Position numbers and translations under genes: made by a program. From positions 372,001-436,000 of the forward strand of contig CAILAC010000013.1 in assembly GCA_903832055.1 (NCBI GenBank): a stretch of 64,000 bases of DNA. Direction: 5' to 3'. Below the pieces are notes generated by a model. It did not search any database. It was not told the DNA's origin and saw only the letters and a list, made by a program, of their open reading frames with translations. Of this stretch, positions 15,366 through 18,141 are shown in pieces. Position 1 is the stretch's first letter; each line of letters starts with the position of its first letter. This DNA is from an uncultured Acidobacteriota bacterium (GTDB taxonomy: Bacteria; Acidobacteriota; Terriglobia; Terriglobales; Acidobacteriaceae).

Positions 15366-16232
15366 ATGTCCACTCTGCTCTCGCCCGCCCACGCAACGCC
15401 TCTTAGCGCCGATATGGAAGAGTGGGACGAGTTCCTCAAAGGCCGCTACAAAGAGGGCAAGAGCGAGGAAGAGTTCCGCGTCTATGACGCGCAGGCCAAT
15501 CCCGGAGTCGCCGAGTTCTACCGCCTCAATCACGAGCATCAGACCTTCGACTACGTGATGCAAAAGGAGCGCGAGTATTTTGGCCTCACCAGGGGCGAAA
15601 AGACCATCTGGGAGGCCGCCGACTTCCTCAACACCCTCGTCGACGACAGCGACCCCGACACCGATCTCACCCAGATTGAGCACCTGCTGCAAACCTCAGA
15701 GGCCATGCGCGCCGACGGCCAGCCCCGCTGGTTTATCCTCACCGGCTTTGTTCACGACCTCGGCAAGGTCCTCTGCCTCTACGGCGAACCCCAGTGGGGC
15801 GTCGTCGGAGACACCTTCCCCGTCGGTTGCGCTTACTCCAACGACATCGTTTTCCCCGAATACTTCGCCAAAAACCCTGACCTGCATCACCCCGTCTACT
15901 CCACCAAATACGGCATCTATGAGCCCAACTGCGGACTCGACAAGGTGCACATGTCCTTTGGCCACGACGGCTATATCTACGAAGTCATGAAGAACTATCT
16001 CCCTGAAGAAGCACTCTACCCCCTCCGCTACCACTCCTTCTACCCCGCCCACAAACACGGCGCCTATGACTACCTCATGAATGACCAGGACCGCTCGATG
16101 TTCAAATGGGTGCACGAATTCAACAAGTACGACCTCTACTCCAAGGGCCACACCAAGCCCGATTTGAAGACGCTGAAGCCCTACTACGACGATCTTTTCG
16201 CGGAGTTCTTCCCCGCCAAAATCGCCTGGTAG
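15366..16232 (+). CDS. Myo-inositol oxygenase (MIOX)
   Basis: A 288-residue protein closely resembling the animal and plant enzyme that oxidises myo-inositol to D-glucuronate with a diiron centre. All six expected iron ligands can be placed: His106, His130-Asp131 (VHDLGK), His200 (MSFGHDGY), His223 (YHSFYPAH) and Asp256 (EFNKYDLY). The [16 protein letters not shown] segment is nearly identical to the eukaryotic form. An AGGAG at about 15354-15358 lies the right distance before the ATG. It follows the sugar transporter by 114 bases, suggesting inositol use or glucuronate supply. Cytoplasmic; no signal peptide. Confidence 0.93.
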
Positions 16233-16701: not shown

Positions 16702-16730
16702 TTGACTTGCTGCCAACCCTCTGCTCTACT
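16702..16730 (+). promoter_or_regulatory. Candidate sigma70 promoter of the threonine dehydratase leader
   Basis: TTGACT at 16702-16707 and TCTACT at 16725-16730 are exactly 17 bases apart. Transcription would start near 16737, giving a leader RNA of about 147 bases up to the terminator-like hairpin. Six of six, or nearly, match the -35 consensus and four of six the -10. The match is by eye. Confidence 0.5.
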
Positions 16731-16764
16731 TCAACTTGTGTATATCACTCAGCCCATTCCCGCC

Positions 16765-16824
16765 ATGCGAATTATTACGCACATCCCATTCCAGTGCGCG
16801 CGCGGGAGCCGGCGCCTGAACTAG
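16765..16824 (+). CDS. Putative Ile/Thr leader peptide of the threonine dehydratase gene
   Basis: A 19-codon frame (MRIITHIPFQCARGSRRLN) whose codons 3, 4, 5 and 7 are Ile, Ile, Thr and Ile. These are the end product and substrate amino acids of the isoleucine pathway entry enzyme encoded just downstream. It ends with TAG at 16822-16824, about 28 bases before a terminator hairpin. It has no clear ribosome site, which weakens the case. Its position between a promoter and a terminator is that of an attenuator leader peptide. Its product would have no function of its own; the act of translation would be the sensor. Confidence 0.5.
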   Translation: MRIITHIPFQCARGSRRLN

Positions 16825-16852
16825 TCAGCCCTCAAGGCCAGCAGCAGCATCG

Positions 16853-16883
16853 CCACCTCCCGCAAGCGCGGCAGGTGGTTTTT
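16853..16883 (+). terminator. Attenuator hairpin before the threonine dehydratase gene
   Basis: CCACCT (16853-16858) pairs with AGGTGG (16873-16878), and inside it CCGC (16860-16863) pairs with GCGG (16868-16871) around a four-base loop. Five T residues follow at 16879-16883, making a standard intrinsic terminator only about 20 bases before the ribosome site. Upstream GCGGGAG (16802-16808) is fully complementary to CTCCCGC (16857-16863) in the terminator left arm, so it can act as the antiterminator partner. Confidence 0.65.
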
Positions 16884-16914
16884 ACGTTTTCGGCAGCACT
16901 CACAGGAGCAACCC

Positions 16915-18141
16915 TTGGAACCAGTCATGGAACCCGTCACCCTCGCCAGCATCCAGATCGCCCGCCACCGCCTCGGCGACGCCATCCATCTCTCCCCCTG
17001 CCAGCTCTCGCACCACCTCTCCGAACACATCGGCCTGCCCATCTATCTCAAGCTCGAAAACCTGCAGCGCACCGGCAGCTTCAAAGAGCGGGGCGCTCTC
17101 AACAAGCTGCTCACCCTCACCAAAGAGCAGCGCCAGCGCGGCGTCATCGCTGCCTCGGCCGGCAACCACGCACAGGGAGTCGCCTTTCACGCCACCCAAC
17201 TCGGCGTCCGATCTCAAATTGTGATGCCCCAGGCCACGCCGCTGGTCAAGGTCGTTTCGACGCGCAACTTCGGCGCTGACGTCATCCTGCACGGCGCCAA
17301 CTACGACGAGGCCTGCGAAGAAGCCCTGCGCCTCTGCGCCGAACAGGACCTCACCTTCATCCATCCTTTTGACGACCCCGACGTAATCGCCGGCCAAGGC
17401 ACCATCGGCCTCGAACTCCTCGAACAAGTCCCCAATCTCGAAGCGGTTGTCGTCCCCATCGGCGGCGGAGGCCTCATCAGCGGCATCGCCTGCGCCCTCA
17501 AGGAATCCAACCCCGCCATCCGCGTCATTGGCGTCGAACCCGAAAAGCTCCCCTCGATGCTGAGAGCCCGCGAGGCAGGCGCGCCGATAACTATCCCCGC
17601 CCAGGCCACGATCGCCGACGGCATTGCCGTGCGCCGTGCCGGAGACTTCACGCTGCCTCTCGTCACCCGCTACGTCGACGAAATCGTCACCGTAGACGAT
17701 GAGGAAATCGCCAGCTCCATCCTCATGCTCCTCGAACAGGAAAAAACCCTTGCCGAAGGAGCAGGAGCGGCGGCCCTCGCAGCCCTGCTGCAGCAGAAAA
17801 CCGGCCTCAGCAGCCAGCGCACCGCCGTGCTGGTCTGCGGCGGCAACATCGACGTCACCCTGCTCGCCAAAATCATCGAGCGCGGCCTGGTCAAAGATGG
17901 CCGCCAGTTGCGCCTCCGCGTCTACCTCCTCGACCGCCCCGGCGCGCTCTTCCAGCTCACCCGCATCCTCGCCGAGCAGCGCGCAAACATCGTCGAGACC
18001 CTCCACAACCGCGCATATTACGGCGTCTCTCTCGCCGAAACCGTCATCGACATCACCCTCGAAACCCGCGGCACCGCCCACATTACCGCCATTTGCCAGG
18101 CCCTGACTCTCGCCGATTTCCGCTTTGAACGTATTCTCTAA
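16915..18141 (+). CDS. ilvA: Threonine dehydratase (threonine ammonia-lyase) with ACT domain
   Basis: PLP enzyme converting threonine to 2-oxobutanoate, the first committed step to isoleucine (or, in the catabolic form, threonine breakdown). The PLP lysine is Lys57 in TGSFKERGALNKLL, followed by SAGNHAQG and the phosphate-binding IGGGGLISG loop. A single ACT-like domain occupies about residues 330-408 (LRVYLLDRPGALFQLTRILA) and probably binds an amino acid effector. The TTG at 16915 is preferred because AGGAG at 16904-16908 lies six bases before it; an ATG at 16927 is the alternative. The Ile/Thr-coding leader and terminator upstream point to the biosynthetic role. Confidence 0.9.
   Translation: MEPVMEPVTLASIQIARHRLGDAIHLSPCQLSHHLSEHIGLPIYLKLENLQRTGSFKERGALNKLLTLTKEQRQRGVIAASAGNHAQGVAFHATQLGVRSQIVMPQATPLVKVVSTRNFGADVILHGANYDEACEEALRLCAEQDLTFIHPFDDPDVIAGQGTIGLELLEQVPNLEAVVVPIGGGGLISGIACALKESNPAIRVIGVEPEKLPSMLRAREAGAPITIPAQATIADGIAVRRAGDFTLPLVTRYVDEIVTVDDEEIASSILMLLEQEKTLAEGAGAAALAALLQQKTGLSSQRTAVLVCGGNIDVTLLAKIIERGLVKDGRQLRLRVYLLDRPGALFQLTRILAEQRANIVETLHNRAYYGVSLAETVIDITLETRGTAHITAICQALTLADFRFERIL

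Follow-up and report, generated by a model that had tools for sequence, protein, structure and literature searches.

An isoleucine-reading leader-peptide attenuator probably controls ilvA in Acidobacteriaceae

Introduction

In Escherichia coli, the thr and ilvGMEDA attenuators combine a leader peptide containing isoleucine codons with a segment 1-4 logic of competing hairpins, and both features recur in the ilvA leader described here. Unlike the ilvA leader, these E. coli leaders have Shine-Dalgarno sites and read threonine plus isoleucine, or isoleucine, leucine and valine.

Leader peptides translated from leaderless messages have been documented in Actinobacteria (PMC11857589, PMC8079986, PMC5784534), and Zheng et al. 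predicted leaderless genes in each of the three Acidobacteria genomes of their study, at a mean of 13.3% of genes (PMC3160421). In Acidobacteria, attenuators have been predicted as premature terminators in front of genes, almost none of them with an associated function (Naville and Gautheret 2010, PMC2965389). The first-pass annotation of the DNA studied here knew of no described leader-peptide attenuator in the Acidobacteriota, an abundant and poorly studied phylum, and this agrees with the open-access literature searched, a scope that excludes the 2010 survey of Lopatovskaya et al., which could contain one.

Here we analyze the region upstream of ilvA in the window, the whole 64,000-nucleotide stretch of DNA under study, together with the corresponding regions of related genomes. 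We conclude that a ribosome-mediated transcription attenuator very probably governs ilvA expression according to the supply of charged isoleucine tRNA.

Results

The ilvA locus and the spread of its leader

The gene downstream of the leader is ilvA (16915-18141, TTG start; like all leader features below, on the forward strand), which encodes threonine ammonia-lyase (NF005600, 508.8 bits, cut-off 496; TIGR01127, 491.4 bits, cut-off 378.75), the first enzyme of isoleucine synthesis, and thus acts in making the amino acid that would be sensed. Its ribosome-binding site, AGGAG, lies at 16904-16908, outside the terminator hairpin. Judged by ilvA, the nearest named relatives are Granulicella, Edaphobacter and Terriglobus, together with metagenome-assembled genomes (MAGs) of Acidobacteria, which points to Acidobacteriaceae as the probable family. 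The gene upstream of the leader (DUF1801) reads away from it, and therefore the hairpin cannot serve as the terminator of that gene. At 15366-16232 the window also encodes a myo-inositol oxygenase (PF05153, 353 bits); such enzymes have mostly been described in eukaryotes. The source genome (G000; 18 contigs totaling 4.57 Mb) also encodes a citramalate-synthase-like protein (G000:C9:125112-126686), whose TIGR00977 score of 304.8 bits is below the cut-off of 450; given this gene, isoleucine may also be made by a route that does not pass through ilvA.

The genus was sampled with 15 genomes, 11 of which have a full-length ilvA match, and one more has an ilvA fragment that retains the leader (L129). 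All 12 readable leaders of the genus contain TTGAC, an extended -10 element, an adjoining in-frame start, a segment complementary to the terminator left arm, and the terminator itself. Three genus genomes (G002, G006 and G010), two of them more than 90% complete, gave no close ilvA match and may make isoleucine in another way. When the upstream stretches of ilvA were compared in a family search of 300 genomes, about 50 leaders were found to share the layout, distributed over 11 genera of the family (12 leaders in the genus and about 39 in 10 others). Among the ilvA leaders compared, the element was not present in many other genera of the family, and it was absent from nine ilvA upstream regions of other families in the phylum (L196-L204). 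In a few relatives parts of it have decayed, as in L114, which has no U-run, and L117, which has no frame. Comparable arrangements were seen in L041, from an Acidobacteria MAG, and in L047, from a MAG labelled Nitrospira; the ilvA of the latter is 61% identical to that of the window, and a short Ile/Met frame, accompanied by a strong terminator, lies ahead of it.

The leader frame most likely starts next to the promoter

The promoter pair named in the first-pass annotation, TTGACT (16702-16707) and TCTACT (16725-16730) separated by 17 nt, is present in the window and conserved in relatives. Scoring of 41 leaders for TTGAC or TTGAT in the -35 region found TTGAC in every one, with a spacer of 17-18 nt in 40 of the 41; the same number carry TGn before the -10 hexamer, so that the window element is read as an extended -10, TGC-TCTACT (16722-16730). 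When leaders are aligned on the -10 hexamer, the seventh base after it is A in 38/41, usually with C before it. On the basis of this conserved CA, transcription is predicted to start about 7 nt past the -10 element, at 16737-16738.

The leader frames of relatives, which begin with ATG in 38 cases and GTG in three, start 6-14 nt past the -10 element in 39/41 leaders. The distance from the predicted transcription start to the start codon is 0-8 nt in all but two of the 41, and the two coincide exactly in four leaders (L128 and L131-L133). The counterpart of these starts in the window is GTG 16738, located 7 nt past TCTACT. The leader frame therefore most likely begins at this GTG and runs to position 16824, encoding the peptide VYITQPIPAMRIITHIPFQCARGSRRLN in 28 codons followed by TAG. 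The ilvA leader transcript would then be leaderless or nearly so, a mode of initiation that we infer from the position of these starts.

The first-pass annotation had instead placed the start at ATG 16765 (16765-16767), giving a 19-codon frame, MRIITHIPFQCARGSRRLN, that ends at TAG 16822-16824, preceded by some 28 nt of untranslated RNA and reading both isoleucine and threonine. That frame exists, is in phase with GTG 16738, and keeps three isoleucine codons; as a description of where translation begins, however, it fits poorly. No Shine-Dalgarno sequence precedes the ATG, and in relatives, whose frames are longer, the aligned position is an internal Ile or Met codon, which is ATT in most relatives from the genus; those leaders that do have ATG at this position (L032, L112, L121 and L013) also have a promoter-adjoining in-frame start. 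The earlier remark that the leader frame lacks a clear ribosome site is correct as an observation, and it would be explained by leaderless or near-leaderless initiation at a start that in relatives lies 6-14 nt past a conserved extended -10 element.

Isoleucine codons are conserved and threonine codons are not

Across the family, leader frames are 24-40 codons long. In 47 leaders, isoleucine accounts for 16.3% of 1476 in-frame codons, compared with 2.2% and 0.8% in the two shifted frames, and distant family members can be extremely rich in isoleucine, for example MSRIMTIPAITISRIIGVMIIIPPS. Threonine accounts for 4% of leader codons and has no consistent placement, and for this reason regulation most likely reads isoleucine only, with the threonine codons being incidental. 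The first-pass annotation had proposed aligning related ilvA leaders to look for conserved Ile and Thr codons; the isoleucine codons proved to be conserved across 11 genera of the family, close relatives included, whereas the threonine codons were not consistently conserved, so that only the isoleucine half of its reading stands. Together with the evidence on initiation, this makes a 19-codon leader that starts at ATG 16765 and senses both amino acids very unlikely.

The control codons of the window, CGA ATT ATT (Arg-Ile-Ile), occupy 16768-16776, and an in-frame CGA followed by ATT, rarely by GTT or ATG, was found in 43 leaders. All 12 leaders of the genus contain the CGAATT motif, in L012 as CGAATG. 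This pair is kept almost to the letter in leaders, though each is a minority choice in the sampled genes: ATT makes up 161 of 241 leader isoleucine codons while five genes of the window favor ATC (71/97), and CGA makes up 51 of 146 leader arginine codons compared with 10 of 104 in the same five genes. Its conservation possibly reflects tuning of the stall or a constraint on the RNA.

Terminator and antiterminator share one arm

The first-pass annotation had pointed to the complementarity of GCGGGAG (16802-16808) with CTCCCGC and to a terminator hairpin followed by five Ts, all of which are present in the window and conserved in relatives. The intrinsic terminator (16852-16883, -18.8 kcal/mol) consists of a hairpin at 16852-16879 with five T residues at 16879-16883 and is kept before ilvA in about 50 leaders. 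Its left arm, which with the loop forms segment 3 (16852-16867) and includes CTCCCGC, is common to the terminator and the antiterminator. Segment 2, the antiterminator strand (16797-16814), has GCGGGAG as its core and can form a duplex of -22.8 kcal/mol with this arm, a value equaled by none of 200 shuffles of the leader. Segment 1, ATTCCCGC (16756-16763), can in turn pair with segment 2 in a protector hairpin, which is part of the minimum-energy fold of the window sequence.

For each of 47 leaders, the region around the leader stop was searched against the terminator left arm and the best duplex was taken. The mean was -18.35 kcal/mol for cognate and -15.59 kcal/mol for mismatched combinations, and the observed cognate sum was reached by 0 of 20,000 permutations, and by 344 of 20,000 when the test was restricted to the genus. 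Selecting the best duplex biases the pair tables towards pairing, a bias to which the permutation test is a partial answer, and the relatives are not independent of one another. Covariation of the kind that the first-pass annotation had suggested looking for is thus present, and it is three-way: the antiterminator strand, the left arm and the right arm of the terminator change together, so that segment 3 covaries with both segment 2 and segment 4. At left-arm positions 8 and 9, where C, G or T occurs, both the antiterminator strand and the right arm carry a base that matches. For the protector pairing of segments 1 and 2, cognate combinations are slightly better than mismatched ones (117/5000 permutations), a weak signal across relatives.

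Segment 2 lies just before the leader stop in the group of the window and just after it in other leaders, and with either placement it would be covered, wholly or partly, by a ribosome at the stop; in the window, a ribosome at stop 16822 would cover part of GCGGGAG and not all of it.

The same parts could in principle be transcribed and translated with no regulatory effect, or the peptide could act as a switch on ilvA translation, which would leave a constitutive partial terminator or a translational device in place of an isoleucine-regulated transcription attenuator. This is highly improbable, since the hairpin is followed by a conserved U-run and leaves the ilvA ribosome site outside, changes in one arm are matched in both of its mutually exclusive partners, and the enrichment of isoleucine codons would have no purpose. 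A riboswitch binding a metabolite or tRNA, such as a T-box, would be compatible with the terminator/antiterminator organization alone and is scarcely credible here, as in searches of the window and 19 related loci no Rfam regulatory family (amino acid leaders, T-box) reached the gathering score, nothing credible was found below that score in the leader, and conservation follows the reading frame rather than an aptamer.

The window sequence by itself would not settle the nature of the element; conservation in relatives does. Folded singly, the whole leader is weakly unusual compared with shuffles (z -1.8). A generic promoter and terminator scan of the window reported neither promoter nor terminator, because its rules accept only -10 hexamers whose second base is A and allow no mismatch in a stem such as this one. 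The leader-peptide attenuator that the first-pass annotation had placed before ilvA is supported by the frame, its isoleucine codons, the three-way covariation, the promoter, and a position conserved across 11 genera.

A second leader precedes the his operon

The comparisons of sequence indicate that a second attenuator of the same design precedes the his operon of the same genome. Upstream of a hisI-like gene followed by hisG (G000:C16, C16:307726, reverse strand; loci L177-L191) are TTGACA-17-TAACCT, ten bases, the peptide MQLHLHHRHHHHHAMTCRRTA and a terminator. The peptide has 8 histidines in 21 codons, its start is predicted to be near-leaderless, and most of the 15 genomes sampled from the genus carry His-rich leaders of the same form. 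This suggests that the ilvA and his leaders share one design, and it further lowers the likelihood that the ilvA leader was read into the sequence by chance. Inspection of leuA, ilvB and trpE of the same genome found no leader attenuator; leuA has, by appearance, a divergent LysR-type gene, and ilvB lies close behind another gene.

Discussion

We propose the following model for the ilvA leader. RNA polymerase would start from the promoter with the extended -10 element, either at GTG 16738 or a few bases ahead of it, and a ribosome would load on the leaderless or nearly leaderless frame. When isoleucyl-tRNA is scarce, the ribosome would stall at the isoleucine codons 16771-16776 and 16783-16785, covering segment 1 and freeing segment 2 to pair with the left arm of the terminator, and this antiterminator pairing would let the polymerase read on into ilvA. 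When isoleucine is plentiful, the ribosome would reach TAG 16822 and cover or release segment 2, and the terminator would form.

The mechanism proposed for the ilvA leader is a known one, but the leader itself is apparently new in this clade and matches no Rfam family. More tentatively, attenuation from leaderless frames, as proposed for ilvA and his, might be a general design of the Acidobacteriaceae in which CGA-ATT, a disfavored arginine codon followed by a less used isoleucine codon, serves as a tuned stall element, a generalization that we consider rather doubtful. Attenuators in the Acidobacteriota had been predicted and hardly explained, and this leader would be one to which a function can be assigned. 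Our findings suggest that leader-peptide attenuation from leaderless frames extends beyond Actinobacteria, and the roughly 50 natural variants provide material for studying how ribosomes load onto leaderless messages and how transcription is coupled to translation in Acidobacteriota.

Of the described systems, the Acidobacteria predictions of Naville and Gautheret come from the same phylum and likewise consist of premature terminators before genes. The ilvBNC leader of Corynebacterium glutamicum (IlvL, MTIIRLVVVTARRLP) resembles the ilvA leader in its branched-chain codons, competing hairpins and intrinsic terminator (PMC11857589, PMC10272879); its transcription start and start codon are one nucleotide apart, and a similar distance is predicted here. 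The C. glutamicum leader, however, controls ilvB and reads valine, leucine and isoleucine, whereas the ilvA leader probably reads isoleucine only and belongs to a different phylum; the likeness is one of layout. In Streptomyces lividans, the peptides encoded by leuL, trpL and ilvL are shorter (12-18 amino acids, compared with 24-40 codons in the ilvA leaders) and belong to other genes and another phylum, yet they too are leaderless leader frames in front of amino acid genes, some with terminators, as predicted for the leader of ilvA (PMC8079986).
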